64,000 nt of DNA from an uncultured Oribacterium sp. (GTDB lineage: Bacteria; Bacillota; Clostridia; Lachnospirales; Lachnospiraceae): contig CAKQPT010000010.1 of the NCBI GenBank assembly GCA_934270345.1, positions 1 to 64,000 of the forward strand, written 5' to 3'. Every line of letters begins with the position of its first letter. Position 1 is the first letter of the stretch. The notes under the pieces are model-generated. The model made no database searches, was not told the origin of the DNA, and worked only from the letters and a program-made list of their open reading frames with translations. Made by a program: the position numbers and the translations under genes. Below are positions 979 to 48,229 of this stretch, one piece after another.

Positions 979-2289
979 ATGACCGAGCTTCAGAATAAAA
1001 CAGCCGCCACGCTGGCTGAGGCCAATGCAGGCGACCACTACGCCGGGCACGCTGCGGAAGCCAGTGGCGGCGAGAGGAGTACAGACCAGACATCCGCCGG
1101 CAGCACGCAGTCGGTCGGGGACCCGACCGACTGGCGCTCCGAGCGGAATGAAGGCCTGCACGAAATCATCATCCGGACGAGCGAGCTGGTGAAGCAGTAC
1201 GGCGACGTGACCGCGGTCGATCACCTGAACCTCGAGATTCATAAAGGCGAGGTTTTCGGTCTGCTCGGTCCGAACGGCGCCGGCAAGACCACCACGACCC
1301 TGATGCTGCTTGGCCTCACGGATCCGACCTCCGGTACAGCTGAAATCAATGGCCTCGACTGCACGCGGGATGCGCTGGCGGTCAAGAAAATCGTCGGCTA
1401 CCTGCCGGATAATGTCGGCTTCTATCCGGACATGAGCGGCCGGGAGAACCTGATTTTCTCCGGCATGATGAACGGCCTCACACGAAAAGAAGCGGAAGAG
1501 CGGGCCGTCGGCCTCCTCGAGCGGGTCGGCATGACCTACGCCGCGGACCGGAAGACGGGCACCTACTCGCGAGGCATGCGCCAGCGTCTCGGCATCGCCG
1601 ATGTCCTCATGAAGGATCCGGAAATCATCATCATGGATGAGCCGACGCTCGGCATCGACCCGTCCGGTATGCGAGAGCTCACCGCCCTGATCCGTGAGCT
1701 GAGCGTCAAGGATGGCCGTACCATCCTGATCTCCTCCCACGAGCTCTACCAGATCCAGGAAATCTCAGACCGCGTCGGCATCTTCGTAAAAGGAAGGATG
1801 ATCGCCTGCGGACGCATCGACGAGCTCGGACAGCAGCTCCAGAACGAAGGCCTCTACATGGTCGACTTCCGCGCAGAGAAGACGACGGATGGACCGATGG
1901 CTATAGAGCACAGAGCAGCGGTGAAGACGGGCACAGAGCATGGCGCGATGAACGCCACGGCAGAGACATTGGCCTCCGATCATGGGACATCGACCATAGA
2001 TGAACTGAAGTCTCTGGTGCGCGGCATCGAGGGCGTGCGCCTCGTCGGCGTGAAGGAGGATGGAACGCTCCACGTCGAGTCGGGCCGCGACATCCGCGCG
2101 GAGCTCTTCCGGAAGCTGACGGACGCCGGCTATCTTCTGAGCGAGCTCCACGAGCGTGGCGGTGACCTCGATGAAATCTACCGCAAATATTTCGAAAAAG
2201 CAGGAGGTGACGAGAACTATGACAATCGCACGGAACACAAGTCGGAAAAGCGATCACTCAGAGAAAAGCTTCTCAGGCACAGCCGCTGA
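979..2289 (+). CDS. ABC transporter ATP-binding protein with extra low-complexity segments
   Basis: This is a 436-residue ATPase that would power the permease encoded next. It has Walker A (GPNGAGKTTT), the signature YSRGMRQRLG and Walker B (IIIMDEPTLG). It is longer than the usual ~310 residues of this ABC-2 ATPase class for two reasons. There is a ~60-residue Ala/Ser/Thr/Gly-rich N-terminal extension before the first conserved strand, and a Ala/Thr/His-rich insertion around residues 305-345. The extension carries the GCCAATGC word that recurs elsewhere in the window. A GGGAGG site lies 8 bases before the ATG. The 3' end overlaps the permease start by about 70 bases, which suggests translational coupling. 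Confidence 0.9.
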   Translation: MTELQNKTAATLAEANAGDHYAGHAAEASGGERSTDQTSAGSTQSVGDPTDWRSERNEGLHEIIIRTSELVKQYGDVTAVDHLNLEIHKGEVFGLLGPNGAGKTTTTLMLLGLTDPTSGTAEINGLDCTRDALAVKKIVGYLPDNVGFYPDMSGRENLIFSGMMNGLTRKEAEERAVGLLERVGMTYAADRKTGTYSRGMRQRLGIADVLMKDPEIIIMDEPTLGIDPSGMRELTALIRELSVKDGRTILISSHELYQIQEISDRVGIFVKGRMIACGRIDELGQQLQNEGLYMVDFRAEKTTDGPMAIEHRAAVKTGTEHGAMNATAETLASDHGTSTIDELKSLVRGIEGVRLVGVKEDGTLHVESGRDIRAELFRKLTDAGYLLSELHERGGDLDEIYRKYFEKAGGDENYDNRTEHKSEKRSLREKLLRHSR

Positions 2290-3547
2290 TTTCTTACAGC
2301 ACAGCAGAGTCGCTGCTGCACCGATACATGGCAGTGCTTCAATCGCTACGACTGCGATTGGTATGAACATGAGGACAGAATCTGTATCAGAAGCCTCTGT
2401 GACGCCTGCGGAATCAGCTTCATTCGATTTACGAAATAACGAGGTGGAGGCTTCAAAGGCGGCAACGCCCGACGCAGGTAAGAAATCGGCTGGAAATCTG
2501 TTGAAGAAAATCGTCGACTGGTTCATGGAGGATGACGACCTCCTGCCGGGGGAGACACCGGAAAGTCATGCGGCCAACGTGCGGACCAACCGCCGCGGCA
2601 TGGCGGTGCTCTACCGGAAGGAGCTCGCGGATCATCTCTGCAGCCGTCGCTTCTGGGCGCTCTTTGCGCTCCTCATGATCGTTTCGGTGGCGAGCCTGTA
2701 CGGCGCCATCGGATCGCTCCGGCAGACAGCATTGGCCGCACAGTCCCAGGGACAGGCCGTCAGTGAATTCCAGTTCCTGAAACTGTTTACGACCGCCGGC
2801 AGCTCGATCTACAGCTTCCAGAGCTTCATCGGCTTCCTCGGTCCGATTTTCGGCATCATGCTCGGCTTCGACGCCATCAACAACGAGCAGGCGCAGGGTA
2901 CGCTGAATCGCCTCGCTGCACAGCCGATCTACCGCGATACCATCATCAACGCGAAGTTCCTCGCAGGGGCCACGGTCGTCTTCCTGACCGTTTTCTCCCT
3001 CGGAGGCGTCCTGTCCGGGCTCGGTCTTCTGTTGAGCGGCACGAAACCGATGGCCGAAGAGTGGGCGCGCCTCGTGATCTTCCTGATCCTCAGCGGCGTG
3101 TACATTTCGGTATGGCTCGCGATTTCCGTCCTCTTTTCGACGCTTTCGCGCCACGCGGCGACCTCGGCACTTTCCTCCATCGCGCTCTGGCTCTTCCTCA
3201 CCATGTTCCTTTCGCTCGTGGCGAGCGGCCTCGCAAACGCGATGTTCGCCGGAACCCATGCCTCCGCGCAGGACGTGATCAGTGCGTACCGTCTGCAGAC
3301 CGGCATCAACCGCATCTCGCCGTACTACCTCTTCAGTGAAGCCGCCTCCGTCCTCATGAACCCGAACGTCCGCTCCCTTGACATCATGTCCCTCGTCGAG
3401 TACCAGAACGGCGCCCTCGCCTCCTACCTGAGCCTCGGACAGTCCCTTCTCCAGATCTGGCCGCACCTCGTCGCCATGATCATGGAAGTCGTCATCGGCT
3501 TCGCCCTCGCTTATATCAGCTTCATGCGGAAGGAAATCCGCGCGTAA
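2219..3547 (+). CDS. ABC-2 type permease
   Basis: The membrane partner of the preceding ATPase. I chose the ATG at 2219 because AGGAGGTGA lies just upstream; a longer frame from GTG 2156 has no such site. The 442-residue product begins with about 120 variable residues and then has six hydrophobic helices. Between helices 2 and 3 sits the stretch NNEQAQGTLNRLAAQP, typical of NatB/ABC-2 permeases. The gene ends the operon and is followed by a strong terminator about 175 bases downstream. The cargo cannot be told from sequence. Confidence 0.87.
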   Translation: MTIARNTSRKSDHSEKSFSGTAADFLQHSRVAAAPIHGSASIATTAIGMNMRTESVSEASVTPAESASFDLRNNEVEASKAATPDAGKKSAGNLLKKIVDWFMEDDDLLPGETPESHAANVRTNRRGMAVLYRKELADHLCSRRFWALFALLMIVSVASLYGAIGSLRQTALAAQSQGQAVSEFQFLKLFTTAGSSIYSFQSFIGFLGPIFGIMLGFDAINNEQAQGTLNRLAAQPIYRDTIINAKFLAGATVVFLTVFSLGGVLSGLGLLLSGTKPMAEEWARLVIFLILSGVYISVWLAISVLFSTLSRHAATSALSSIALWLFLTMFLSLVASGLANAMFAGTHASAQDVISAYRLQTGINRISPYYLFSEAASVLMNPNVRSLDIMSLVEYQNGALASYLSLGQSLLQIWPHLVAMIMEVVIGFALAYISFMRKEIRA

Positions 3548-3720
3548 GGAAGGCCAGCGGAAATCGAGCTCTGCTTCAAAGAGTATAAGCTGGGAAATCT
3601 GCGCGTGAAGATTATGGAGGCGGATGCTTCTGTGGATGTTGAGCGACTGCATCATGACGCATGCAGAGGACTACATCCTGACGTGTGTTGAACGAATCCA
3701 TCTGCATATGAACGACAAAA

Positions 3721-3766
3721 CCGCGGCGCAGGACCTCGAAATCTGGTCCCGCGCCGCGGCTTTTTA
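3721..3766 (+). terminator. Rho-independent terminator of the ABC exporter operon
   Basis: A very GC-rich stem (CCGCGGCGC against GCGCCGCGG, extended inward by GGACC/GGTCC) is followed by TTTTT. It ends the operon that stops at 3547. Confidence 0.85.
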
Positions 3767-3836
3767 AAATAATTAGCAAGATTAATTCAGGCGCCGGGTT
3801 TAATAAATACGATTGAACGCTCTGAAAATATGAAAG

Positions 3837-4088
3837 TGTATTATTTGAGCCGAATTTTAAATAATAATATGTTTAAAGTCGCTATCGGAAGGGAATCTGG
3901 CGATAAAATATATTAATCAGGCGTGTTTTGAAAAAATAATATAAATAAATGACTTCGCTGAACAGCAAACATGGGTATAACTATATTATTTTTCTGAAAC
4001 AGGCCATAATAATATACATATGCTATCTAAGAAGCAGTTTAACGAAAATAATATATATTATATTTCGTTAAATAGGAGAAATCATATA
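3837..4088. repeat. Array A: four 35-bp inverted-arm elements, 72-73 bp pitch
   Basis: The gap 3767-4403 holds no credible gene. Within it are four 35-bp units at 3837-3871, 3909-3943, 3982-4016 and 4054-4088. Each has a left arm close to TATATTATT and a right arm close to AATAATATA (its inverse) around a 17-base core. Starts are 72, 73 and 72 bases apart and the spacers (37-38 bases) look unrelated. The cores are asymmetric (GCG..TTTT..AAAA) and read forward, forward, reverse, reverse. The same element forms array C at 8789-9042, on the other side of the two-gene island. Confidence 0.75.
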
Positions 4089-4283
4089 TCATTATCATTC
4101 CAAACATAGCGATATGACCTATGCGAATACAAATCATCATTCGTTAAAACCAAATATAGTCCGTTTGTAGACATTGTCAAAAGCAAAAACTTATATTACG
4201 ATATAGATATGCAAAACGACGAAGTTTTTTAATGACGCATGCAGATATTCTATAGGAACTATAGTTGCAGTGTATACTCGGCT

Positions 4284-4318
4284 CTGATTTCTGATTTCTG
4301 ATTTCTGATTTCTGATTT
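4284..4318 (+). repeat. Five perfect tandem copies of CTGATTT upstream of the RecQ-like gene
   Basis: A 7-base simple repeat occurs five times without interruption, followed by degenerate copies up to about 4355. It lies about 85 bases before the ATG at 4404, in the expected promoter/leader zone. Such tracts can change length by slippage, so copy number could tune expression (inference). Confidence 0.8.
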
Positions 4319-4403
4319 CTGTTTTCCTAATTCTGAAATCGGGCTTCTGATTTCGTCGTTGCGATTATGATTATTACACTCCGAGCGAAAGGAACTACTC
4401 GAG

Positions 4404-7400
4404 ATGTCCGATGTTCATCGATCTGAAATGTCTCTGGCCTCCGCCTATGCGCGTATCTTTTCTGCACTGGAAAGCGGCAGGGATGTGCTGGCGATGCCGC
4501 CGGTCGGTCAGCTTCGTCTGGACTGCTATCGACAGCTTGTGAAGCAGCTTCCGGGTATCATACTGATCATTTCTTCATTTAAAGAGCGCATGGAAAAAGA
4601 AATCGATATGCTCGAGCAGGATGGTATCCCTGCGGCGATGCTGCATTCCGGCACGACGGATTATGTCATGGCAGCGCAACGGGAGCGTGTCCGACGACAT
4701 CATTTCCGAATACTCTTTGTCTCACCAGGTCTTCTGGAGAAGTCTGAACTCCGCTCCTTCCTCGTCTCTCAGGCATCGATTTCTCTGATCGTCATCGATG
4801 AAGCCCAGATCTGTTCGATCCACGCTCCACATTTTCAACCGCTATACCACGCGATTCCACTTCTGCTGAAGGATCTCGAACGACAGGCAGCGCCCTCCCG
4901 TCCACCGGTCCTTGCACTGACACTGCCGACAACGCGGCAGGTGGAGCAGGACATCGGGCACTTTTTCTCACTTCAGCATCCCCTTCTCGTCCGGCATCAG
5001 TTTGAACGCCTGAATCTCTTTCTGTCGGTGCATCGTCCACAGCGCAAGGCACCGTTTCTCCTCGATTTTCTACGCCGCCATGAAAACGAAGCAGGCATTA
5101 TCTACTGCACAGAGCATCGTCTGACGGAGCACATCGCACAGCTGCTCAATCGCAGCGGTTTCCCAGCGCTCTCCTACCACGCAGGTCTGACCCGCGAGGA
5201 ACGCATGGCGAATGCCCGGGCTTTCTGCACCGGCGCACCGTCGTCAGACCATCCGAACGCAGCCGCGTACATCGCAGGCAGCCGGCGTTCAGACGCCCGG
5301 AACACGGGTCGACGGTTGCAGGGGCTGGCGACGCCCGATGCGGAGGCCAATGCAGGCGCCCGGATCCTCGTCGTGACGCCGGATCCCTTTCTCGAGCTCG
5401 ACCGGTCGGATGTGCGCTTCGTGCTGCACTACACGATGCCGGAAAGTCTCGACCACTACTATCAGGAGGTCGTCCACGCGGGATGTGACGGTCTCCCGGC
5501 CGAGTGCATTCTCCTTGCGAACGAGCGTGACTTCGAGCTCCAGCGTACGAAGCTCGGGAAGGTGACGCTCGGCTACCAGTCGTATCCGGAAGTCGTCGAG
5601 CAGGTGAAGCGACAGTTTGAAGCGATGCGCCGCTACGCGATGACGCATCAGTGCCTGCGCGCATTTATGAAAAATTATGTTGAGCAGGCAGATGGGACGT
5701 CGATCAGCTCTGCGCCTGGTAATGTCTTCATCGCGACTCACTCGGATTCCTCGGCGCAGACAGCAGAACATCACCGCAACCGCACATCGATGAACGGAAA
5801 AATGCAAACGTCCGCTGGCTATGAGGTCCTCACGCTGCCGTCACGGAATCGTGTGCTGACGAGCGCAGAGCTGCCGGTCGACGAAAGTCTGCGGACGATT
5901 CGGCAGTCCGGGCGCTACCCGGAAAACCGCGTTCAGAAGGTGTCGATGCAGCTGAAACGCGCGGAGAAGCAGCATATCTTCATACGCTATGCCGATCGGG
6001 AGCATATGCGAAACCAGGCCTATAAATATGATCATCTCCGCACGGATCCCTGGGAGCTGTGCGAGCCGGGAATTCGCGTGCAGAATTTCCGCGCATTTTC
6101 CATCCCGCGTGACAGCTGCTGCGTGAACTGCAATCCGGAGCACTTCCTCGAGGAGGACCGCTATGGCATCAGCGATACCATGGGCCTTCAGGAACGGATG
6201 CGCGAACATCTACACCAGCTCGAGACGGACATGGATGCCGGGCGGAAGATCCGACTGTGGAAGGCCGGCGAAAAACAGTACCACTTCGATTATGATGCGC
6301 ACGCGAAGTGCGCAGGAAGGATCATGGCGATGCGAAAAGTCGAATATCAGAAAAATGAAACCGGGTGTGCCACACAGATCAGAACCAGCGCATACCAGCC
6401 CGACGCGCAGCAGCTCCGGCTGCTTGAAAGTGCCCGTCTCGAGATTTCGCCTGAGATGCGGACGCAGCTGCTCGGAAATCTGAAGGCACTTCGGAAGCGG
6501 CTCGCGATGGAACGGAGTGTGCAGGCGTACCAGATTTTCACCGATAAGTCACTGGTGGAGATGTGCCGTATGCTCCCGCTTACCCGTGAGGAATTTGCAC
6601 GCATCCATGGCGTCGGTCAGCGGAAGCTGGAACTCCACTACGATGACTTCACCGATGAGATCCGGAAAGCCCTCGACCCTGCACGTGTCGCAGACTTCTA
6701 CGAAAACGTGTCGGAGGAGATACAGGAAGACCTGCAGTATGGTAGCGGCGCCTGTGCAGCCGTGGGCTTCGCGGCTGACCCGGGGCACGTTGCAGGTTTC
6801 TGTGAAATTGAGTTGGGAAAGAGACAGGATAGTACTGAAGCATGTGCAGCCATGGGCTTCGCGGCTGGCCCGGGGCATCAGGAAAACAGCACGCGTGCAG
6901 GCCTGACGGATGCCGCTGTGCCAGCAACTGTTATAAAGTCTGCGCCGAAAGCAAGGTCAGAATCGCAGCAGAAACCGAAATACCGTTTCATCCCGGATGA
7001 TGTCCTGCTGGCCTTTCTCGAGGAGAAGTACCTGCAGCAGCGGACGCGGAAACAGGTAAAGAAAAAGCAGGACTTCTTCCTGACTGTGGCAGAAGCCGCC
7101 TCCTTTCACTGCTCGGATGGCCTGCGCTCGCCGGAAATCGCCGTGCTTCTGAACGCGCTCGTCGCAGAAACGGATGACCCTACCGCGTTCATCGATGCTG
7201 GAACTTCAAACAGTGAACAGACATCAGATGCAGTGACGATGGAGAACCCGGTCGAAACACAGATATCAGAAGCAGTGGCGGCGGAGAAGCCAGTCGAAAC
7301 ACAGATGTCAGATGCAGTGGCAGTGGAGAAGCCAGTCAAAACACAGATATCAGAAGCAGTGGCGGTGGAGAAGCCAGTCGAATCAAAAAATCAGCAGAAG

Positions 7401-7661
7401 CTGCGTGTCCGGGAGCGAAAGAAGCTGTCTGGTGCGACCATCGACCGGAAGCTGGCGGAGCTTGGCTACCTCGAATTAAGCGAATACAGCATCAATGGCC
7501 GGCCTCGTCAGGCCTACCTCCCAACCACCAAAGGAGAGACCGCCGGCATTGTCCTCGGCACCCGGAAGAGCCAGGGTGGCGTGGATTACCCGACCGCTTA
7601 CTTCAGCGCAGCCGCCGCAGGATGGGTCGCGACTCTGTTCGTTCGTGCCGAGCAGACATGA
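4404..7661 (+). CDS. RecQ-shaped protein with lost ATPase motifs, HRDC domain and repeat-rich C-terminus
   Basis: The 1085-residue product aligns by eye with RecQ helicases over its first ~400 residues, but the key residues are gone. The Walker A region (31-40, MPPVGQLRLD) lacks the GKS/T lysine, DEAH is DEAQ (132-135), and motif VI (YYQEVVHAGCDG, 352-363) lacks the arginines of the usual QETGRAGRDG. A ~45-residue low-complexity insertion (about 275-320) splits motifs IV and V. A Cys cluster (CCVNCNP) resembles a partial RecQ zinc site, and an HRDC domain lies near 690-757. After it come two 35-bp repeats 90 bases apart, three 42-bp repeats (VETQISEAVAAEKP type) and a C-terminal winged-helix-like domain. 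It is probably a DNA-binding or structural protein rather than an active helicase (inference). Confidence 0.82.
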   Translation: MSDVHRSEMSLASAYARIFSALESGRDVLAMPPVGQLRLDCYRQLVKQLPGIILIISSFKERMEKEIDMLEQDGIPAAMLHSGTTDYVMAAQRERVRRHHFRILFVSPGLLEKSELRSFLVSQASISLIVIDEAQICSIHAPHFQPLYHAIPLLLKDLERQAAPSRPPVLALTLPTTRQVEQDIGHFFSLQHPLLVRHQFERLNLFLSVHRPQRKAPFLLDFLRRHENEAGIIYCTEHRLTEHIAQLLNRSGFPALSYHAGLTREERMANARAFCTGAPSSDHPNAAAYIAGSRRSDARNTGRRLQGLATPDAEANAGARILVVTPDPFLELDRSDVRFVLHYTMPESLDHYYQEVVHAGCDGLPAECILLANERDFELQRTKLGKVTLGYQSYPEVVEQVKRQFEAMRRYAMTHQCLRAFMKNYVEQADGTSISSAPGNVFIATHSDSSAQTAEHHRNRTSMNGKMQTSAGYEVLTLPSRNRVLTSAELPVDESLRTIRQSGRYPENRVQKVSMQLKRAEKQHIFIRYADREHMRNQAYKYDHLRTDPWELCEPGIRVQNFRAFSIPRDSCCVNCNPEHFLEEDRYGISDTMGLQERMREHLHQLETDMDAGRKIRLWKAGEKQYHFDYDAHAKCAGRIMAMRKVEYQKNETGCATQIRTSAYQPDAQQLRLLESARLEISPEMRTQLLGNLKALRKRLAMERSVQAYQIFTDKSLVEMCRMLPLTREEFARIHGVGQRKLELHYDDFTDEIRKALDPARVADFYENVSEEIQEDLQYGSGACAAVGFAADPGHVAGFCEIELGKRQDSTEACAAMGFAAGPGHQENSTRAGLTDAAVPATVIKSAPKARSESQQKPKYRFIPDDVLLAFLEEKYLQQRTRKQVKKKQDFFLTVAEAASFHCSDGLRSPEIAVLLNALVAETDDPTAFIDAGTSNSEQTSDAVTMENPVETQISEAVAAEKPVETQMSDAVAVEKPVKTQISEAVAVEKPVESKNQQKLRVRERKKLSGATIDRKLAELGYLELSEYSINGRPRQAYLPTTKGETAGIVLGTRKSQGGVDYPTAYFSAAAAGWVATLFVRAEQT
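6753..6877 (+). repeat. Two 35-bp direct repeats inside the RecQ-like gene
   Basis: Near-identical 35-base copies at 6753-6787 and 6843-6877 are exactly 90 bases apart and in frame. They encode CAAVGFAADPGH and CAAMGFAAGPGH in the linker after the HRDC domain. Confidence 0.85.
7251..7376 (+). repeat. Three tandem 42-bp in-frame repeats
   Basis: Units at 7251, 7293 and 7335 each encode 14 residues of the form V-E/K-T-Q-I/M-S-E/D-A-V-A-A/V-E-K-P, with a partial unit before the first. They form an acidic linker between the HRDC part and the C-terminal winged-helix-like domain, and copy number could vary between strains. Confidence 0.9.
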
Positions 7662-7917
7662 GTCGAATCCCCACCTCTTCGAAGGAAAAGAAGATAAGGT
7701 TCGCTCGCTTCGTGCAGATTTCCCAATAGTCTTGCGAAGTGACGGAGTGAAGCCGGAAACATTGGCAGAGGATGGCTGCTGCCAGATCGAGAATCTGGCA
7801 AGGAGCATCGAGCCGGATGGCTCAAGAAAATGCTGGCTACTGTCAAAAGAGGAGAGCAGAAATGAACCCTGAAAGCTTTGGCTTTTCAAGGAAAATCACT
7901 TGACTATAAGGAGGAAT

Positions 7918-8730
7918 ATGGATTTATCTGAAAAAATGAAATATGAAATCGAGCGGCTGCAGAGTGCCCGTGCGCAGTATGAGCGCTGGCTGGAAACCGC
8001 GCCGGAGGGTTCTATTCATTTTCTGAGCGCCGGGCAGAGAACATCGTGGATGCTTTATCAGCCGCAGGAAGAACAAAAAATTCGGTATTTGTCGAAGCAC
8101 GAAACGGAGAAGGCAGAGAATATGGCACTGAAGCGGCTTTATACGGCACGGCTCAGAGATATTGATCAGCAGATCAGTGCGTATACAAACTGCCTGAAGA
8201 TGCTGGAAAAGGCCCATCGTGCAGAGAAACTTCTTGAACGCTCCGATTCACTGCGCGTATTAACCGGACACCGACTTTATTATCTGCCACAGGACCTTGC
8301 CGAGTGGGTCGATGCCGACTATGAGAAGAACCCGTCGAATCCAGAACATCTGAAAGTGCCTACTATGAGTGGCGAGTTCGTGCGTTCGAAATCGGAACGA
8401 TCGATTTACAATCTGCTTCGAAATGCGAATCTGCCATTTCGATATGAATGTAAGCTGGAGCTGGAACATGCCAGAAGGCCGAACTATCCAGACTTCACGA
8501 TTCTGAATCCCAATAATGGAAAGACCTATTATTATGAGCATTTCGGCATGATGGATGATCCGGATTATCAGAGAGATTTTTTAAACAAGATGCGTATATA
8601 CCTGAATAATGGTATATATCCTGGAGTGAACCTGATTATGTCATTTGAGACGCAGGAGATGCCACTCGATGAAGTCTACGTGCACCATTTACTGGAATAT
8701 TATTTCGGAGATGCGATACAGAAGATGTAA
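7918..8730 (+). CDS. Uncharacterised protein with possible PD-(D/E)xK-like nuclease core
   Basis: The start at ATG 7918 is fixed by AAGGAGG just upstream; the frame could be read from TTG 7900 but that codon precedes the ribosome site. The 270-residue product has a helical, probably coiled-coil N-terminal half (1-110), then RSKSE (156-160), FRYE, YPDFTI (190-195) and YYYEHFGMMD. A conserved D followed by E-x-x in strand-like surroundings recalls the restriction-endonuclease-like fold, but the usual E-x-K lysine is replaced by E-H. Nuclease activity is a guess. It follows the RecQ-like gene at a 256-base gap on the same strand and is followed by array C, so the pair forms an isolated island. 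Confidence 0.7.
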   Translation: MDLSEKMKYEIERLQSARAQYERWLETAPEGSIHFLSAGQRTSWMLYQPQEEQKIRYLSKHETEKAENMALKRLYTARLRDIDQQISAYTNCLKMLEKAHRAEKLLERSDSLRVLTGHRLYYLPQDLAEWVDADYEKNPSNPEHLKVPTMSGEFVRSKSERSIYNLLRNANLPFRYECKLELEHARRPNYPDFTILNPNNGKTYYYEHFGMMDDPDYQRDFLNKMRIYLNNGIYPGVNLIMSFETQEMPLDEVYVHHLLEYYFGDAIQKM

Positions 8731-8788
8731 ACACTATTTTGGAATGGCATGGCGCTCGCGTCATATCGTGCTGAGATTTTGATGAAAA

Positions 8789-9042
8789 TATATTAAATTA
8801 GCGATCTTCAGAAAAATAATATACCTCTTTGCAGAGCAGAAGTCGACTTAACCACGAATGAGTATATTATTGTCGCCGTTTCAATAAAAATGATATATAA
8901 ACAGCGTCGGGTTTGGATGGTTTAAGTGCAATTTATATATCATTTTTTGAAATGCGCATATAATAATATATTTTACTGATTCAAATCCGAATAATGATGA
9001 AAATATGTATATTAAAAATTAAAATAGCTCAAAAATGATATA
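8789..9042. repeat. Array C: four 35-bp inverted-arm elements, 72-74 bp pitch
   Basis: The gap after the nuclease-like gene holds four units of exactly 35 bases: 8789-8823, 8863-8897, 8936-8970 and 9008-9042. Starts are 74, 73 and 72 bases apart. Left arms (TATATTATT, TATATCATT, TATATTAAA) mirror right arms (AATAATATA or AATGATATA). Arms and spacing match array A, and the core orientation again reads forward, forward, reverse, reverse. The 37-39-base spacers look unrelated to each other. Confidence 0.78.
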
Positions 9043-9045
9043 TTT

Positions 9046-9362
9046 CGGGAGGTTCGCACAACCCCCGGCTATAGAAATCATATCCATTTCAGGGCTTGCG
9101 CTTGCGAAGAGAAAAGTATAACATGAACATCATTGTTCGGGGCTGTTCAGCTGGGCCAATGCAGACGACCAGAACCTGGATGGCTCCGCGTCCCGCACCC
9201 GCGGGCACGGTCCGGCGCTGGTCCGCCACAGGCTTATGCTGCCCGCGCGGCTTCAGCGCGCGCCGGTTTTGCTTGATTGTCCGCACCGCTGCCGCGCCTG
9301 CCGCCCGCCGCGTGGAAGCATCCGCGTCCCGCCACCCCACCACACATCGAGGTACCACCACT
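9046..9362 (+). other. Leader of the TauE-like gene with GC-rich inverted words
   Basis: No separate gene is evident. The stretch switches abruptly from AT-rich array to GC-rich DNA. It contains the dispersed GCCAATGC-core word (9153-9180) and GC-rich self-complementary words near 9239-9270. The frame upstream of the exporter stays open back to 9096, so a low-complexity N-terminal extension cannot be fully excluded, but its composition looks like non-coding element sequence. Confidence 0.5.
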
Positions 9363-10130
9363 ATGCACATCACATTTCTGACCTATCTTATCTGTTGTCC
9401 ACTTGTATTTCTCGCCGGTCTCGTCGACGCCATCGGCGGAGGTGGCGGTCTGATTTCCCTTCCGGCCTATCTGCTCGCCGGCCTCCCGGCGCATTACGCC
9501 ATCGGCACCAACAAGCTTTCCAGCTGCTGTGGAACCACCGTCGCGACCGCTCGTTTCATCCGCGAAGGCCTCGTCAACTGGAAGCTTGCCATTCCGTCCA
9601 TCGTCGCCGCCGTCATCGGATCCTCGATCGGTGCCCGGATCAGCCTCCTCATCCCGGAGCAGGTCCTCGTCACGATCCTCCTCGTCGTCCTGCCCGTGAC
9701 CGCCTTCATCGTCCTGAACCGCCACATCTTCCACGACAATGTCGAAGAAGCGCAGACGGACACCCCGAAAGTGTACGTGACTGCCATCCTCGCCGCGCTC
9801 ATTATCGGCTTCTATGATGGCTTCTACGGCCCAGGCACCGGCACCTTCCTCATCATCGCCTTCACCGTCTTCGCGAAGCTCGGCATCAAAACCGCCAACG
9901 GCCAGACGAAGGTCATCAACCTGACGACGAACATCACCTCCCTCGTGATCTTCATCCTGCACGGCCAGACCGTCTTCCTGCTCGGCATCCCATGCGCCAT
10001 CTGCAACATGATCGGAAACTACATCGGCGCCGGCCTCATGATGAAAAACGGCATGAAAATCGTCCGCCCGTCGATCCTCGTCGTACTCGTCCTCCTCGCC
10101 ATCAAGGTCGTCACCGAGTACATCCTGTGA
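9363..10130 (+). CDS. TauE/SafE (TSUP) family membrane exporter
   Basis: The ATG at 9363 begins a 255-residue, very hydrophobic protein with about eight membrane helices. It shows the two related family signatures: GGGGGLISLPAYLLAGLP with the following GTNKLSS near the N-terminus, and GFYDGFYGPGTGTFL with NGQTKVINLTTN in the second half. TSUP proteins move small organic or sulfur-containing anions across the membrane; the substrate here is unknown. A GAGG lies 10-14 bases before the ATG. The open frame further upstream is GC-rich low-complexity sequence without family similarity, so I did not include it. Confidence 0.88.
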   Translation: MHITFLTYLICCPLVFLAGLVDAIGGGGGLISLPAYLLAGLPAHYAIGTNKLSSCCGTTVATARFIREGLVNWKLAIPSIVAAVIGSSIGARISLLIPEQVLVTILLVVLPVTAFIVLNRHIFHDNVEEAQTDTPKVYVTAILAALIIGFYDGFYGPGTGTFLIIAFTVFAKLGIKTANGQTKVINLTTNITSLVIFILHGQTVFLLGIPCAICNMIGNYIGAGLMMKNGMKIVRPSILVVLVLLAIKVVTEYIL

Positions 10131-10197
10131 GGCAGGCCAATGCAGGTGCCCTCGACGCAGGCACCCGTCCGCATAAATGTGGAAAGGAGGCAGGCAC

Positions 10198-11334
10198 ATG
10201 CAGGATCCCGTTGTCATCATGAACTTCACCCACATCTACGAAGACGAAACGTTCTATATTTCAGAGCAGAAGAGCAGCGGCGAAGCATCGCCCGCGCCGT
10301 CCATCGCATCCGGCAGCCCGGCACCCGCGGTCGTCACTGCCGAGCCCGCGCCGCCCATCGCATCTGGCAGCCTGGCACCCGTGCACGCCGAATCGCCTGC
10401 GCAGTCTATCGTTTCCGGCATCCCCGCGCCTGCGCGGGCTGCTTCGCTAAAGCCTTACATCCTCGATTTCACTACGCTGTCCGGCACCAACGGCTTCTGC
10501 GACGATGCCGCCGCGGATGAGATCCGTCGTCGCATCGCCAACTTCCCGGCGCGCGGCCTCCACTTTCTCGACAACGGCAACTACCACTACGTCACGCGCT
10601 TCTGGTGCGAAAAAATCACGGAAGACTTCGCCCTCGTCGTCTATGACCACCACGTCGACCTCCGAAAGCCCGTCTTCCTCGGCCTTATGAGCTGCGGCTC
10701 CTGGATCTGCGACGTTCTCCTCCGAAACCGTCACTGCCGCGCCGTCCTTATCATTGGCCCGGAACGCGCCCAGGCCGACATCATCGAACGCGAGCTGCAG
10801 AGTCTCGCTGACGAAGACAACTTCAGCGATGAAAGCGTGTCTGGAACAGCAGCTGGCCCTCGGATGATTGCAGATTCCGCTGTGCACGACAGGACACCCA
10901 GCGCTTCGGACGTGAATCTCCCGGCCCACACCTGGACGTTCGTGCGCCCGAAAGCTGACAATCAGAGCTCGCCCTTATCCGCGCGCGTCTCCTGCTTTAC
11001 GGAGGACGACATCCTGGACGGCCGTGCAGCGCGCGAACTGCCACACATCCTCGACGAGCTCAGACTCCCGGTCTACATCTCCATCGATAAGGACGTCCTC
11101 TCCCGAAAAGTGCTGCGCACCAACTGGGACCAGGGCATCATGACCGAAGCCGAATTCCGGCACGAACTCGACCGCTTCACCATGGACCCCGACATCCATA
11201 TCCTCGGCGCCGACATCTGCGGCGAACCCGCCTACAACGCCTGCCGCCGCATCCTTGACGACACCCGCGACCTCCGCCGAAGCGACGGCGTAAACCGCCG
11301 TCTCCTGGAGCACTATCTGGCACGCATGCAGTAG
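10198..11334 (+). CDS. Ureohydrolase (arginase/agmatinase)-like protein with repeat insertions
   Basis: AAAGGAGG upstream fixes the ATG at 10198 (378 residues). Metal-binding patterns of the arginase fold are visible: YDHHVDL (the D-x-H-x-D class), SIDKDVL (S-x-D-x-D) and an upstream GNYHY that may replace the GGDH motif. Family members hydrolyse guanidino compounds with a di-manganese centre, but some relatives are formimino hydrolases or inactive, so the substrate is open. Residues ~21-83 form three degenerate ~16-20-residue repeats of the type PAPSIASGSPAP, and a second variable stretch lies at ~209-262. Both interrupt an otherwise compact fold. A strong terminator follows. Confidence 0.75.
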   Translation: MQDPVVIMNFTHIYEDETFYISEQKSSGEASPAPSIASGSPAPAVVTAEPAPPIASGSLAPVHAESPAQSIVSGIPAPARAASLKPYILDFTTLSGTNGFCDDAAADEIRRRIANFPARGLHFLDNGNYHYVTRFWCEKITEDFALVVYDHHVDLRKPVFLGLMSCGSWICDVLLRNRHCRAVLIIGPERAQADIIERELQSLADEDNFSDESVSGTAAGPRMIADSAVHDRTPSASDVNLPAHTWTFVRPKADNQSSPLSARVSCFTEDDILDGRAARELPHILDELRLPVYISIDKDVLSRKVLRTNWDQGIMTEAEFRHELDRFTMDPDIHILGADICGEPAYNACRRILDDTRDLRRSDGVNRRLLEHYLARMQ

Positions 11335-22825: not shown

Positions 22826-22899
22826 GAACGAAACAGCAGTATATTCGATGAAAATTATGGTAGCAAGAACAGCTAACTTTTTTCTGAAAAGTGAAATTT

Positions 22900-23382
22900 A
22901 TGAGCAGTGAAATGAAATTAAGAACATTAAGGAAGCAAAAGAAACTGACCCAGGTCGAGTGTGCGAAGTACCTGGGCATCCCGGTTCGTACATACCAGAA
23001 CTATGAAACGGATGAAAAAAAGCAGGATACGCCGAAATATGTCTATATGATACAGAAGCTGGACCAGTATGGATTCATCGATGAAAGCCATGGCATCTTA
23101 AGTATCCAGAAAATAAAAGATGTATGCCGCGACATTTTCGCAGCCTATGATGTAGACTATTGCTATCTGTTCGGCTCTTACGCAAAGGGAAAAGCGACGG
23201 AAACAAGCGATGTAGATCTGCTGATTTCGACCACGGTTTCCGGCATGAAGTTCTATGAACTGGTCGAAGAGCTCCGGGAAGCTTTAAAAAAAGAAGTGGA
23301 CCTGCTGAATCTGGAGCAGTTGAAAGATAATCTTGAACTCGTAAACGAAATCCTGAAGGACGGTATAAAAGTGTATGGATAA
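22900..23382 (+). CDS. mntA: HTH-MNT fusion antitoxin (minimal nucleotidyltransferase)
   Basis: The 160-residue product joins an XRE-type helix-turn-helix (about 5-38, LRKQKKLTQVECAKYLGIPV) to a minimal nucleotidyltransferase domain with GSYAKGKATETSDVDLL (Gly92-Ser93, Asp104 and Asp106). In known HEPN/MNT (type VII) systems the MNT protein AMPylates the HEPN toxin on a tyrosine and so silences it. The fused HTH is less common and suggests that this antitoxin also represses its own promoter through the 33-bp repeats. I took ATG 22900; GTG 22891 and ATG 22912 are possible, and no ribosome site is strong. It overlaps hepT by 8 bases. Confidence 0.88.
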   Translation: MSSEMKLRTLRKQKKLTQVECAKYLGIPVRTYQNYETDEKKQDTPKYVYMIQKLDQYGFIDESHGILSIQKIKDVCRDIFAAYDVDYCYLFGSYAKGKATETSDVDLLISTTVSGMKFYELVEELREALKKEVDLLNLEQLKDNLELVNEILKDGIKVYG

Positions 23383-23710
23383 CAAGAAAACAAACCAATA
23401 TTACCTACAGAAGATTATTACGGATCTTCGCTTTATCATCGCACATACGAAAGATATCTCTCAGGGAGAGCTGGAGGAAAACGAACTTCTGATTGATTCC
23501 GTGATGTTTCGTCTGATACAGATTTCGGAGAATTCGGATCGCTTAAGCGAAGAATTTAAGCAACAGCATGCATCGATTCCCTGGCGGGCGATGAAAGGCC
23601 TTCGTAACCGAATCGTCCATGAATACGGCAATGTCGTATTATCAATCGTATATGATACCGTGAAAAAAGATATTCCGGAGCTCCTGGAGGATTTGGAGGA
23701 TATCGAATAA
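23375..23710 (+). CDS. hepT: HEPN-domain toxin
   Basis: A 111-residue all-helical HEPN protein of the DUF86/HepT family. The catalytic RX4HXY motif is intact: Arg77, His82 and Tyr84 in GLRNRIVHEYGN. HepT proteins are RNases, and the tyrosine is the known AMPylation site of the paired MNT enzyme. The ATG lies inside the last codons of mntA (8-base overlap), so the two are translated together. All expected residues are present, so the toxin should be active. The mRNA runs out into array F. Confidence 0.92.
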   Translation: MDNKKTNQYYLQKIITDLRFIIAHTKDISQGELEENELLIDSVMFRLIQISENSDRLSEEFKQQHASIPWRAMKGLRNRIVHEYGNVVLSIVYDTVKKDIPELLEDLEDIE

Positions 23711-23755: not shown

Positions 23756-24158
23756 GCTATCTAATATTGAACGATTTCAAAAATAGTGGATATGATTTTC
23801 CTCTTGAAAAGCGTCAGCCAGCTGAAAACTATCCAACCATAGGCGATTTTAAAAATATTGGATATTGAAAGGCTTGTTTCGTAAGAGTGCGCCACTCTCA
23901 AGTATCCAGCTTTTAAGAAAAGAAGGATTATTGGATATGCGCGCAAAAGAATTCTTCGCTAGAGCCCAAAATCCATATCCACTATTTTAGAAAGCGAGGA
24001 CGATTGGATAGTACGCATATAAGCGTATGCCTGAATTCGCGTAAAACTATCCAATAAGTGCCGTTTTATGAAATCATAGATAGTTTTGCTCCCGGAGGAA
24101 AATGATAAAAACTATTGAAAATATCCACTATTAGAAAAATCGCTCACTATTGGATAGT
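23756..24158. repeat. Array F: six ~38-bp inverted-arm elements, 71-75 bp pitch
   Basis: The ~690-base gap 23711-24398 has no credible gene. Units lie at 23756-23793, 23828-23865, 23901-23938, 23975-24012, 24046-24084 and 24121-24158. Arms are close to ACTATCCAA and TTGGATAGT/TTGGATAT. The asymmetric core GCGATTTTAAAAA reads forward in units 1, 2 and 5 and reverse in 3, 4 and 6. Spacers of 33-37 bases look unrelated. The architecture and core resemble arrays A and C, but the arms differ. The remaining 24159-24398 shows nothing except the promoter of the next gene. Confidence 0.75.
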
Positions 24159-30993: not shown

Positions 30994-31000
30994 AAAGTGC

Positions 31001-31028
31001 TTGCATTCTTGTGAAAAGCATGTATAAT
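31001..31028 (+). promoter_or_regulatory. Upstream promoter P1 of the wall-binding repeat gene
   Basis: TTGCAT (31001-31006) and TATAAT (31023-31028) are spaced 16 bases. Transcripts from here would have a ~260-base leader. Confidence 0.7.
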
Positions 31029-31212
31029 CGCAGACATAGGTTAATTATTAAGATTTGATTAAGAAGTACGAAAGATAGTCTTTAAGAAATTCGTAAGAAT
31101 TAGTAATGACTCTGTTATATACTTTCTGGTTGAATCGCAGTAAGATAACCTCGTACATGATGAGAGAGTACGAAGCAAGTACTTCCTCCGCGGAACCAAG
31201 TAAGAAAAGGAC

Positions 31213-31241
31213 TTGCAAGGTCACACGCTTAGAGGTATAAT
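31213..31241 (+). promoter_or_regulatory. Downstream promoter P2 of the wall-binding repeat gene
   Basis: TTGCAA (31213-31218) and TATAAT (31236-31241) have an ideal 17-base spacer, 55 bases before the ATG. A strong AAAAAAGGAGAG ribosome site follows. The stretch 31029-31212 shows no gene and only weak pairing words. Confidence 0.75.
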
Positions 31242-31296
31242 CTCACCGTAACTGAGCCTAGAGGCTCGAAAAGAAAAAAAGGAGAGTGCATTTATT

Positions 31297-32823
31297 ATGA
31301 AGAAGCAGACAAAGGTAATGGCAACACTTTCTACTGCAGCACTTCTTGCTCTTGGTTTTTCAGCCGTTTCCATGGCAGCTGGTTGGGATAACTCAACAGG
31401 CGCTTGGAGATATCTGAACAACGATGGCACAGAGGTTGTTGACGAGTGGAAGTCCGCAAACGGAAATTGGTTCTATCTTGACAGCGACGGAGTTATGGCT
31501 ACCGATAAGCTGATCGAGGATGAGTCTGGTTCCAAGACGAAGTACTATTATGTTGACCAGTACGGCGCTATGGTAAAGAATACCTGGAAGGCTGTAGCTA
31601 TGGACGACGATGATAATACTGATCTCGACGCTGAGTACTGGTGGTACTACTTCGGTAACGATGGTAAGGCTTATACCACTGAGTCCGACAAGAAGCTTAC
31701 AAAGAATAAGGTTAAGACCATCAACGGCCTTAAGTATGCCTTCGATTCTGAGGGCCACATGCTTTATGGCTGGGTTAATACTGATTCCCACACTCAGGAT
31801 GACGACGATGCGCAGGCTTGGATGCACGCTGATTACTATTTCAACGGCTGGAACGATGGCCATGCTCAGACTGGTTGGGCTCAGCTTAACGTAGAGAAGG
31901 AAGATGGCGATACCGAGAATTACTGGTTCTACTTTGATGGTAACGGTATCAAGCAGTCCAGCAAGCGTAAGAAGATCAACGGCGTTTACTATGTATTCGA
32001 TGAGTACGGCCGCATGGTTGATGAGTGGGCTATTCAGCATGGTGATACATGGTCCGCACTTGATGAGATTGCTACTGGTACTACAGCCACAAATATCGCA
32101 TATCTCAATGGCGATGGTTCTCAGAGAAAGAACACTTGGGTTTGGGCTATTCCGGGTGAGAACTGGATCAACAAGGATTACGAGGACGATAGCTACAGAT
32201 GGTTCTACTTCGGTAAGAATGGCAAGCTGACTGTTGATCAGAAGAAGAAGATCAATGGTAAGTACTATGCATTCGATGAGTACGGCCGTATGCAGACGGG
32301 CTTCGTAGCTGTTGGCGATGATAACAAGGGCGTAACCAAGATTGGTAGTGCAGATGACTTCACTGCTAAGGAGTGGATCGCTGCTAACAACGATGGCGCA
32401 TTCTTCTTCTCATCTAATGAAGAGAAGGATGGCTCCATGAAGACTGGATATCAGAACATCGAGATGGATGATGATACCTATCAGTTCTATTTCCAGAAGA
32501 ATGGTGAGGCTAAGACTCAGTACGATAGCAAGATTAAGAAGTTCACTGTTGCTGGTCTTGTTCTGAAGCCAGCAACTGATGATGACAACAACTACGGTGC
32601 AGTAGCTGCTGATGGCCTGAGCATCACAACCACTTATAAGGATATGACAGTAGGCATGTATCTTGTTAATAAGCAGGGTACTCTTGTAAAGAACAAGACT
32701 GTCAAGGATGAGAACGACCAGTACTGGCTGACTGATGAGGATGGTAAGATCCTTAACAAGGCAGCAAGCAAGGATGCTTATGATGATATGAAGGATGATA
32801 AGACTTGGTACATTGCTGACTAA
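31297..32823 (+). CDS. Secreted cell-wall/glucan-binding repeat protein
   Basis: A 508-residue exported protein with signal peptide MKKQTKVMATLSTAALLALG...AVSMAA. The rest is built of imperfect aromatic/Gly repeats of the choline- or glucan-binding type: W.Y.N.DG, G.WFYLD.DG, KKING..YAFDEYGRM and variants with WYYFG.DGK. No catalytic domain is visible, so it is likely a surface-binding or structural protein. Codon use (GCT, GAT, AAG, CTT) is strongly biased and differs from both neighbours, and there are two promoters, an ideal ribosome site and a strong terminator. All of this suggests very high expression. Confidence 0.9.
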   Translation: MKKQTKVMATLSTAALLALGFSAVSMAAGWDNSTGAWRYLNNDGTEVVDEWKSANGNWFYLDSDGVMATDKLIEDESGSKTKYYYVDQYGAMVKNTWKAVAMDDDDNTDLDAEYWWYYFGNDGKAYTTESDKKLTKNKVKTINGLKYAFDSEGHMLYGWVNTDSHTQDDDDAQAWMHADYYFNGWNDGHAQTGWAQLNVEKEDGDTENYWFYFDGNGIKQSSKRKKINGVYYVFDEYGRMVDEWAIQHGDTWSALDEIATGTTATNIAYLNGDGSQRKNTWVWAIPGENWINKDYEDDSYRWFYFGKNGKLTVDQKKKINGKYYAFDEYGRMQTGFVAVGDDNKGVTKIGSADDFTAKEWIAANNDGAFFFSSNEEKDGSMKTGYQNIEMDDDTYQFYFQKNGEAKTQYDSKIKKFTVAGLVLKPATDDDNNYGAVAADGLSITTTYKDMTVGMYLVNKQGTLVKNKTVKDENDQYWLTDEDGKILNKAASKDAYDDMKDDKTWYIAD

Positions 32824-32850
32824 TTTCTGAACATCATTCATTGAGAAAAT

Positions 32851-32887
32851 AAAAAGGTTCCGGGGAGAAGTCCCCGGGGCCTTTTTT
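32851..32887 (+). terminator. Strong terminator of the wall-binding repeat gene
   Basis: CCGGGG pairs with CCCCGG around AGAAGT, extended by AAAAGG/CCTTTT, ending in six T residues. Confidence 0.9.
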
Positions 32888-32958
32888 AAAACAGGCTTTT
32901 ATATGATGAGGATCATCAAACTGCCCATCAAACTTGTTGGGGGGTGTCGATCTTTTTG

Positions 32959-32989
32959 TGGGGCGGACTTGAGGGTCGGCCCTTTTTTT
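32959..32989 (+). terminator. Second, weaker terminator-like hairpin
   Basis: GGGGCGGAC pairs imperfectly with GGTCGGCCC and is followed by seven T residues. It may act as a backup terminator behind the highly expressed gene. Confidence 0.55.
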
Positions 32990-33157
32990 AGAACTCTCTG
33001 AACTTTTCATGAACATATCGTGAACCTGCTAGGATTTTTCCTGAAAGAATGGTATGATAGGCGACGTTGTATTTAACTAAGAACCTAAACAGTGACGCAA
33101 GCGCATCGAAAGCATGCGAATGACCGCTGATTTCAGAAGACCATAGGAGAATGTGAT

Positions 33158-33739
33158 ATGAAATCGATGAAGAATTTGATGATCTTTGGTGTGACAGCAC
33201 TTGCTGCGCTTTCTGTAAGCGCATGCAAGCCGACGTATGAAGTGCCGGTGGATGATCCGATTATGACGACGGCCCCTGCAGATGCCCCTTATGAGATGGA
33301 CTTTGATCAGCTGAATGATGATGTGATCGACGGCTTCTCGAAGACCCATGTGGTCTTCCCGTTCGTGAAGTCTATGGAGATCGACGGCGATAATGATACT
33401 AAAACTATTACGGCGACCATCGACATCCAGCCAAATGTTGACGATTACGCCGTGCAGGTTCTGCTTTCCGATGTGACGAAGAAAATTGATAATAATGCCT
33501 ATATTCAGGATTTTCGTATCAAGCAGGCAGATGATACGCAGTTTGGCTCTGTTTATGATATCTATAGTTACACCTATAAGGTGACTTGTGATGGAGAAAC
33601 ATTATACGACGAAACTATTCAGCAGGGATCGGAGATTCCGCTGGATCCGAGCGTGGATGGAAACAAAATTATGGAATCTATAGCTGAAGTTCAGGATTCG
33701 GATGATTCTTTGGATACGAGTGAAACGTCATCGAACTAA
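33158..33739 (+). CDS. Putative lipoprotein of unknown function
   Basis: A 193-residue product with a lipoprotein signal: a basic start, hydrophobic run and the lipobox LSVSAC, giving Cys24 as the modified residue. The mature part is acidic, with predicted beta strands (TKTITATIDIQPNVDDYAVQ region) and a Ser/Asp-rich C-terminus, and resembles no family I recognise. It stands alone between the terminators of the wall-binding gene and a hairpin before the next glycosyltransferase. A surface role in the polysaccharide locus is only suggested by position. Confidence 0.75.
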   Translation: MKSMKNLMIFGVTALAALSVSACKPTYEVPVDDPIMTTAPADAPYEMDFDQLNDDVIDGFSKTHVVFPFVKSMEIDGDNDTKTITATIDIQPNVDDYAVQVLLSDVTKKIDNNAYIQDFRIKQADDTQFGSVYDIYSYTYKVTCDGETLYDETIQQGSEIPLDPSVDGNKIMESIAEVQDSDDSLDTSETSSN

Positions 33740-33772
33740 CTGGAAGGCTATTCATAAAACAAGTCTTGTGGT

Positions 33773-33806
33773 AAAATCTCTCTTAGTATTTACTAAGAGG
33801 GATTTT
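33773..33806 (+). promoter_or_regulatory. Hairpin holding the ribosome-binding site of the next gene
   Basis: AAAATCTCTCTTAGTA pairs almost perfectly (16 bp, one G-T) with TACTAAGAGGGATTTT and ends one base before the ATG at 33808. The only plausible ribosome site (AGAGGG) is inside the stem. It may double as the terminator of the lipoprotein gene, since TTTTT follows the stem core. Confidence 0.65.
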
Positions 33807-33807
33807 T

Positions 33808-34653
33808 ATGAATTTAGAAGTATTGATTTCCTGTATGAATCAGCAGGATATGAAAATTGCTGAACAGACAGGAATTCAGACGGACGCGCTGATTGTAAAT
33901 CAGTGCCCGCAGGCCGAGTGTTCGGATGATGCTTCGTTAGACCGCAACGCGATTGAAGTGCAAAACGGTTCGCGTGGTACAATCCGTATGATAAGAACAA
34001 ACACGCGAGGACTGTCAAAAAGTCGTAATTTGGCTATCCAGCATACTGTCGGAGATGTATGTCTTCTCTGCGATGATGATGAACAGCTGGATTCATCCTA
34101 TGAGGATACCATCTTGAATGCATATGCTGAACTTCCGGATGCGGACATCATCTGTTTTCGAATCTCGAATCAGACTAGTCGCTTAACGCAGAAAACGCAG
34201 CGATTAACCAAATGGACGGCGATGCGCATCGCGTCCTGGCAGATTACATTTCGTAGAGAGTCCATTTTGAAGAGGGGGATTCAATTCGATGAAAATATGG
34301 GCGCTGGAACCGGAAATGGTGGTGGCGAAGAAGTCAAGTTCCTGAGAGACTGTATAAAAGCAGGACTGAAAGCCTATTATGTTCCGAAAAGTATAGGTAC
34401 AGTAGCGCAGACAGACTCTACCTGGTTTAGGGGATTCGATCGAGACTTCTTCTATAAGCGTGGGATTACGAACCGATATATGCTGGGACTTCCAGTATCC
34501 ATTTTGTATGCGGCGTACTATACCATGGTGAAAAGAGATTTATATAAAGAGTATGTGACACCCTGGCAGTCGTTTAAGTATACCCTGGATGGAATTATCT
34601 CGAATGACATAGCAAAGCAGAAAAAACGGAGAAATAGTTTTGGAAAATCGTAG
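33808..34653 (+). CDS. GT2-like glycosyltransferase
   Basis: A 281-residue GT-A protein. NTRGLSKSRNLAIQH and LLCDDDEQLDSSYE form the nucleotide-sugar site with an acidic DDDE motif, and a GAGTGNGGGEEVKFLRDC stretch follows, as in small capsule glycosyltransferases. The N-terminus (MNLEVLISCMNQQD) is the family start. There is no clear membrane anchor apart from a hydrophobic stretch near 230-245. It overlaps the downstream phosphoglycosyl transferase by 14 bases. Its translation start is probably controlled by the hairpin described at 33773. Confidence 0.85.
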   Translation: MNLEVLISCMNQQDMKIAEQTGIQTDALIVNQCPQAECSDDASLDRNAIEVQNGSRGTIRMIRTNTRGLSKSRNLAIQHTVGDVCLLCDDDEQLDSSYEDTILNAYAELPDADIICFRISNQTSRLTQKTQRLTKWTAMRIASWQITFRRESILKRGIQFDENMGAGTGNGGGEEVKFLRDCIKAGLKAYYVPKSIGTVAQTDSTWFRGFDRDFFYKRGITNRYMLGLPVSILYAAYYTMVKRDLYKEYVTPWQSFKYTLDGIISNDIAKQKKRRNSFGKS

Positions 34654-36004: not shown

Positions 36005-36097
36005 GCATGGATTCTGCTCACTTATGTATGATAAGAGTGAAAACGAGAAGATGACACGCTGCCTGCAAACGATCAGGACTATTTTATGTGAGGAGAC

Positions 36098-36874: not shown

Positions 36875-36902
36875 ACGAAGAATTTGAAGATATGGTAAGT
36901 GT

Positions 36903-37928: not shown

Positions 37929-37979
37929 AAACACAAAAAAGTCCAATGCCAACACTACGCATTGGACTTTTTTGTGTTT
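37929..37979. terminator. Perfect 21-bp bidirectional terminator
   Basis: A 21-base arm (AAACACAAAAAAGTCC... side) pairs perfectly with its mirror across a 9-base loop, with A-rich and T-rich flanks. It separates the glycosyltransferase unit from the ABC exporter unit. Confidence 0.93.
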
Positions 37980-38100
37980 CTGATGAAGGATATCGAACCG
38001 TAGCGTGAACATCGAGAGACGGGGAAGATGTTTTACAAGATAATTAATATGGATTAAGCGGAATACAATGCGTGTAGATTCTCGAAAATAGAGATATATG

Positions 38101-38109
38101 TGGTATAAT
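38101..38109 (+). promoter_or_regulatory. Extended -10 promoter of the exporter unit
   Basis: TGGTATAAT gives an extended -10 about 35 bases before the ATG at 38144. No good -35 is seen. It lies just after the bidirectional terminator. Confidence 0.6.
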
Positions 38110-38143
38110 ATTACAATCTATGTACTTACTGGAGAGGAGATTT

Positions 38144-38932: not shown

Positions 38933-38947
38933 TGAAGGAGAGTGTTC

Positions 38948-39691: not shown

Positions 39692-39698
39692 AGGTACG

Positions 39699-41582: not shown

Positions 41583-41723
41583 TGATTGAATAGAAATTAT
41601 TTGTTTGGCATTTCGATAACAATGAGCATTTAGGTGTTTTGAGCTGAAATATAAGTTTTGTATAGTGAAATACAATAATCATTGCTGTTTATGTGATTTG
41701 GCGAAAGTTGGGAGGAATGAATA

Positions 41724-44084: not shown

Positions 44085-44111
44085 TTATGGTTAAGGAGTA
44101 TACACAATATT

Positions 44112-47739: not shown

Positions 47740-47772
47740 TGACTAGATGGGAAGACTGGTGGGGCCACGACA

Positions 47773-48205: not shown

Positions 48206-48229
48206 TACTCATACTGATAATTTAGCGAA

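Follow-up and report, generated by a model that had tools for sequence, protein, structure and literature searches.

In a 64,000-nucleotide stretch of DNA from an uncultured Oribacterium sp. (contig CAKQPT010000010.1, positions 1 to 64,000; hereafter, the window), a short gene for a PD-(D/E)XK nuclease-like protein lies between two matching arrays of inverted-arm repeats, A and C. We found that arrays of this kind accompany relatives of the gene in other genomes: 79 of 116 nuclease loci in the family to which a sister genome, G001, belongs carry an array, called as at least three inverted-arm units within 1.5 kb of the nuclease gene. There is very little doubt that this link between nuclease and arrays is real. 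We lean slightly toward the interpretation that the arrays are the cognate sites of the nuclease-like protein, with A and C as copies that flank the master gene.

Table 1. Features of the window (F and R, forward and reverse orientation of the core).
Feature	Position	Strand	Description
Array A	3837..4088	no strand	four 35-bp inverted-arm units: 3837 F, 3909 F, 3982 R, 4054 R; pitch 72/73/72
RecQ-like gene	4404..7661	+	1085 aa, HRDC domain, degenerate ATPase motifs; between A and C, not a recurrent partner
PD-(D/E)XK-like gene, array-linked	7918..8730	+	ATG 7918, stop at 8730; AGGAGG 7909-7914 before ATG
Array C	8789..9042	no strand	four 35-bp units: 8789 F, 8863 F, 8936 R, 9008 R; pitch 74/73/72; arms as in array A
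Array B	23758..24156	no strand	six units: 23758, 23830, 23903, 23976, 24048, 24122; arms TATCCA...TGGATA; order FFRRFR

The pattern TATATTATT-N17-AATAATATA, with up to three mismatches, matches the window eight times, at the eight units of arrays A and C (Table 1), against a mean chance expectation of 0.02; none of 100 dinucleotide shuffles reached eight. A scan blind to arm sequence (35-bp inverted-arm units, pitch 60-90 bp) recovered A, C, and four units of array B, and nothing in 20 block-shuffled windows. When core orientation was learned jointly over 11 elements (consensus nnnnnGnCnnTTTTnAAAATn), both A and C read FFRR, the least certain call being unit A4. A sequence-only reading of the window had described two matching four-unit arrays of 35-bp units, with starts 72-74 bp apart, spacers of 37-39 bp, cores in that order, and only a RecQ-like and a nuclease-like open reading frame (ORF) between them, and all of this description held. 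The consensus arms of A and C consist of A and T only, and identity between repeats falls to 60%. The arms alternate (A, A', A, A'), so it is not certain which stretches are units and which are spacers, and the unit length is ambiguous.

A profile built from 35 nuclease relatives found the nuclease family in 99 of the 299 genomes searched from G001's family, and in 30 of the 391 from its class. The 116 loci comprised 114 fetched loci, the window, and the locus of the sister genome (L001); 54 had flanks of up to about 10 kb and 60 of up to about 3 kb. All but one of the fetched loci came from among the family-genome matches listed, places at contig ends were mostly left out, and paralogous loci of one genome were kept. 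Counted by segment, arrays were present in 87 of 228 near segments, 7 of 282 far segments, and 0 of 228 shuffled segments. In the same stretches, arrays accompanied 8 of 116 other ORFs of 200-340 aa, compared with 31 of 48 nuclease genes; the far segments and this ORF control were drawn from stretches longer than 15 kb. The scan settings were tuned on loci overlapping the 116, and 24 further genomes provided a cleaner test: the best locus of each had an array in 11 cases (10 of the 16 with a full-length match, one of the eight with a weak or partial match). Among the 37 loci without inverted-arm arrays, four have chains of at least four direct repeats (pitch 56; 52-53; 63-65; 73-81 bp), compared with 1 of 68 far segments. 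A viral scan yielded nine distant nuclease loci, none with an array.

The arrays detected hold 3-15 units, and their arm sequences vary from locus to locus. Many are nearly uniform within one locus, and longer direct arrays also occur. Such uniformity is what ordinary tandem repeats would show if they merely shared intergenic places with the gene and had no functional tie to it, but arrays were far rarer at far segments, at other ORFs, and in shuffles, and neither the helical quantization of their pitch nor the presence of common arms at separate places, both described below, fits this explanation, which we consider highly improbable. A number of nuclease genes (in G026, G038, G059, G103, and others) are only a few hundred bases away from the end of their contig, as expected if repeats break assemblies. 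At L006 and L010, where the nuclease domain matches only partially, nearby repeats have a pitch of 54 bp (about five turns) and arms TTGGGTCAT.

The spacing of units follows the DNA helix. The pitch scan was open to any value from 45 to 110 bp and found pitches of 46-110 bp, mostly 51-95. The mean modal pitches of the 87 arrays form classes at 53.0 (28 arrays), 62.9 (22), 73.2 (26), 82.7 (6), and 94.0 bp (3), with two more arrays at 109; in turns of 10.5 bp, the five classes correspond to 5.04, 5.99, 6.97, 7.87, and 8.95. Seventy-eight of the 87 arrays are no more than 2 bp from a whole turn, and a free period search fitted array medians best at 10.35 bp and distinct pitches at 10.60. In arrays with more than one pitch, 21 within-array differences fall near multiples of 10.5 (R 0.68). 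Nominal p-values for the phasing are too small, because the loci are kin, but without phasing one would hardly expect five distinct classes spaced by one turn.

With a whole-turn pitch, the units face the same side of the DNA, an arrangement that favors a protein on duplex DNA over a role at the RNA level. Transcribed next to the gene, the arrays could in principle supply guide or hairpin RNAs, given that palindromic arms could form hairpins and that the arrays adjoin a nuclease-like gene. However, quantization of pitch to the helical repeat of DNA speaks against this, the A/T-only consensus arms of A and C would make weak stems, and positions 1-30000 of the window contain no Rfam family at gathering score; we give the RNA-level explanation almost no credence. 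That the protein binds the arrays at the DNA level is, in our judgment, quite probable.

The arms found beside the nuclease gene also recur elsewhere in the genome. We counted arm patterns in five genomes, chosen from the 99 family carriers for a nuclease with a clear array, with the reversed pattern as control. In G001, the TATACACG pattern occurred 23 times (control, 1) and the TATCCA pattern 39 times (control, 0). Counts were 67 against 2 for TACCCC in G298, 36 against 3 for CCGACT in G237, 94 against 10 for CTACGTAC in G313, and 42 against 17 for TAGTGAAG in G066, where clusters are present and many listed matches are single and weak. The nuclease-side arms thus recur at other places in all five genomes, weakly so in G066. 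Most listed matches in the other four form clusters at the family's own pitch; among the matches listed, there are at least 14 multi-unit clusters in G298 (three around the nuclease), five in G237, and at least seven in G313. Eleven of 14 places fetched from G298 are clear arrays; by mechanical ORF calls, these 11 arrays are intergenic if one disregards short ORFs (81-118 aa) that overlap five. Arms are better conserved than cores and spacers in the G001 and window copies, and in G237 the cores differ between array places while the arms stay the same, as though a single protein read the arms at all of these places and each array grew locally.

This dispersal bears on two alternatives that also invoke a DNA-binding protein. 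The arrays might be operators and sinks, with the protein repressing its own gene cooperatively and the dispersed arrays holding or titrating it, either as a leash on the nuclease or as a regulon. Helical phasing suits cooperative binding, and 67 of the 87 arrays are upstream of the nuclease gene; but arrays also lie downstream (20 of 87), as array C does, and seven of the 11 clear arrays in G298 lie between convergent genes rather than at promoters, again by mechanical ORF calls. We consider this alternative unlikely. Chromosome architecture is another possibility: MatP acts in this way at matS sites, and the nuclease-like protein, if catalytically idle, could similarly bridge dispersed phased arrays. 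The sites are indeed dispersed, intergenic, and phased, with arms conserved over cores and spacers. Such a role is difficult to reconcile with acidic nuclease residues that are invariant in 35 sequences, with the restriction of the nuclease family to 99 of 299 family genomes, and with the fast turnover of arm sequences, and it strikes us as improbable.

A comparison with the sister genome, the Lachnospiraceae metagenome-assembled genome S9M_St_59, suggests which part of the protein may read the arms. Gene order at L001 is as in the window, and the DNA around the array places is about 90-97% identical between the two. Nonetheless, both flanks in G001 carry other arms, TATACACG...CGTGTATA, in 35-bp units whose pitch is mostly 72, 73, or 83 bp. 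The two nuclease-like proteins (residues numbered without the Met) are 97% identical over residues 1-29 (28/29), 41% over residues 30-57 (11/27; 41% or 48% depending on the alignment), 60% over 58-97, 57% over 98-150, and 79% over 151-269. Thus, one segment of the protein changed along with the arrays, but the regions next to them did not. The dip at residues 30-57 appears in eight relatives (P0002-P0008 and L001), at 33-48% identity, whereas their nuclease domains are 79-87% identical to that of the window protein. This hypervariable segment of the close relatives coincides with beta strands at about residues 31-56, within the N-terminal part of the protein. We judge the case for residues 30-57 as the reading element to be evenly balanced.

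Two points from the family-wide comparison qualify the interpretation that we favor. Across 79 loci, half-site similarity rose with protein identity: it exceeded 0.55 in 55% of the 20 pairs with more than 60% identity, compared with 0.7-2.0% of those below 35%. Mantel tests, each with p 0.0005, gave r values of 0.23 (whole protein), 0.22 (nuclease domain), and 0.15 (residues 30-57); descent alone would yield part of this correlation between arms and protein. With nuclease-domain identity held (387 pairs), residues 30-57 gave the largest partial correlation, yet it was 0.15, and the family-wide data back a recognition role for these residues only weakly. The dip among close relatives is the stronger hint of such a role.

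The dispersed TATACACG elements of G001 resemble the window arrays in order, four of five being FFRR and one FFRF. One worn element, on contig C18, bears the window's own TATATTAT arms, and no nuclease homolog was found on that contig; dispersal of the A/C arms is visible as this one copy, in a comparison that covers G001 and not the whole genome of the window. At two other places in G001 (C49, L099 9750-10512; C56, L102 9440-10107), TATACACG and TATCCA elements stand side by side, as if arrays gathered at shared sites.

The nuclease-like protein is 270 aa long. Fold matches to its C-terminal half are PD-(D/E)XK enzymes (VIA-align), and E159, D191, and E206 are invariant in 35 sequences, with EHFG standing where ExK would be expected. 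Pfam contains no family that matches the window protein and gave just two weak, unrelated matches among the 35 relatives; the PDB has no sequence relative below E 0.1. The strand pattern of the N-terminal part suggested an arm-binding fold like that of integrases, but this was unsupported, the best Foldseek rows being prefoldin-like at E 0.03 or worse.

How a cognate pair of this kind might work can be sketched. The protein, probably one dimer per unit, would read the inverted arms through its N-terminal part, and in-phase units would let dimers stack or bridge in a cooperative assembly on one helix face. The nuclease domain would then act at or near the arrays, where breaks and their repair could expand arrays in place. 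The same activity might seed arrays at new, mostly intergenic sites, in the way proposed for RAYT transposases and REPINs, while the gene would stay at one place, between or beside arrays. That the nuclease drives the spreading of arrays is a more tentative suggestion, which we hold with some doubt. Equally tentatively, we propose a large and undescribed class of nuclease-like proteins, found in about a third of the sampled genomes of one Lachnospiraceae-type family, in which private arms are phased beside the gene and genome-wide, the protein reads and propagates the arrays, and exchange of a beta-sheet segment changes the recognized sequence.

The sequence-only reading had instead taken repeats and both genes for one unit, a mobile or defense island. 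That the arrays go with a gene between them was right, but the gene is the nuclease: a RecQ relative lies within 4 kb of the nuclease in just two of 115 loci, the window and L001. This analysis covered 115 of the 116 loci, L121 being left out, and no neighbor gene family of the nuclease recurs in more than nine of them. We therefore regard the RecQ-like gene as a local neighbor, and dropped RecQ as a partner of the arrays after this count; at most nuclease loci, arrays are present and RecQ is absent. L001 does keep the gene order and has geometrically matching arrays on either side, as a two-gene island bounded by arrays would. However, arrays are not limited to the ends of an island, and together with the RecQ count this leaves the two-gene island with only the slightest probability. 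The shared geometry was rightly taken as meaningful; of the boundary, binding, or regulatory sites proposed, binding sites are the best reading, and the same arms far from the gene argue against island boundaries. Arrays at unrelated sites, unlinked to the genes, had been named as evidence that would refute the idea, and this is in part what was found: arrays with the same arms occur at a distance from the gene within one genome.

In the RecQ-like protein, Walker A and motif VI are degenerate, making it a candidate pseudo-helicase. It has 921 homologs, and the 120 listed are 66-99% identical. A search of genome contigs with this protein returned a single locus, L001, and at E 1e-60 or better G001 alone matched among 17 genomes of the genus. 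A 42-bp tandem repeat occupies positions 7217-7384 inside the gene.

Array B, overlooked in the sequence-only reading, shares the geometry of A and C but has other arms. It is homologous to dispersed elements of G001, three of which align with it from end to end, with a mean column identity of 71%. As for empty sites, which together with terminal repeats and target-site duplication mark a transposon or miniature inverted-repeat transposable element, the equivalent place in G001 holds another array and no clean empty site. A nucleotidyltransferase/HepT-type gene pair adjoins array B (window 22891-23710; L098 4950-6300). In G001, the HepT-like gene at the equivalent of this site is shortened and, by eye, a different repeat array (TAATGGCA...) occupies the place. 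Farther along the window, positions 31000-51000 form a long stretch of lower GC content, about 0.32-0.49, whereas most of the first 22 kb is at about 0.6.

We compared the nuclease and its arrays with known systems. The size range of clustered regularly interspaced short palindromic repeats (CRISPR) takes in a 35-bp unit with a 37-39 bp gap. Unlike CRISPR, the units of A and C are degenerate and ordered FFRR, and the genes between them are not cas genes, none of which was found among six scanned proteins from 979 to 11334. Unlike TnsA-like PD-(D/E)XK endonucleases, the nuclease here has an N-terminal part of its own and no recurrent partner genes. Its C-terminal nuclease stretch matches the PADLOC candidates PDC-S68 (E 4e-25) and PDC-S69 (E 7e-4), which share this stretch, but the PDC-S68 models are 1202-1273 positions long and match only at their ends, whereas here a 270-aa protein stands beside arrays.

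Tandem interspaced guide RNA (TIGR)-Tas systems (PMC12045711) have arrays up- or downstream of the gene, with repeats fixed per locus and varied between loci, and the nuclease arrays match this in placement and locus-specific repeats. They differ in other respects: Pfam gives no Nop-domain match for the nuclease, TIGR arrays have 8-12-nt dual repeats and 9-nt spacers compared with a pitch here of tens of base pairs, and nuclease-array arms recur at several places of one genome.

The nearest resemblance in working is to repetitive extragenic palindromic (REP) sequences and their REP-associated tyrosine transposases (RAYTs). Two accounts (PMC8266576, PMC3116915) describe short, dispersed intergenic palindromes beside a cognate gene, with a sequence of their own for each protein and co-change of the two; palindromes dispersed in the genome and repeats beside the cognate gene are likewise found here. 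The proteins differ in fold, the nuclease being PD-(D/E)XK-like and RAYT (TnpAREP) an HUH/Y1 tyrosine transposase, and the repeats here form helically phased arrays in which cores may differ between places while arms stay. REP repeats carry a GTAG or CGTC tag at the repeat end, according to PMC3733652; by eye, arrays A, B, and C have no such tag, and their units begin TATA, TGTA, or TATC. The replicative unit of REP/RAYT is an inverted doublet; here, elements in the window and G001 read FFRR, but longer direct arrays exist elsewhere.

In the open-access literature searched, with most subscription papers and preprints outside its reach, there was no description of nuclease-linked phased palindromic arrays, and among the kinds tested on their defining features none fits. 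If our interpretation is correct, it would be a second, unrelated solution to the role filled by REP/RAYT, in which a bacterial protein is tied to its own dispersed repeat. Private arms and their matching proteins would then provide a natural collection of protein-and-site pairs for studying how recognition evolves. The proposal also offers a testable explanation for one kind of repeat in the intergenic DNA of gut-type bacteria, a kind for which the open-access literature searched yielded no description.

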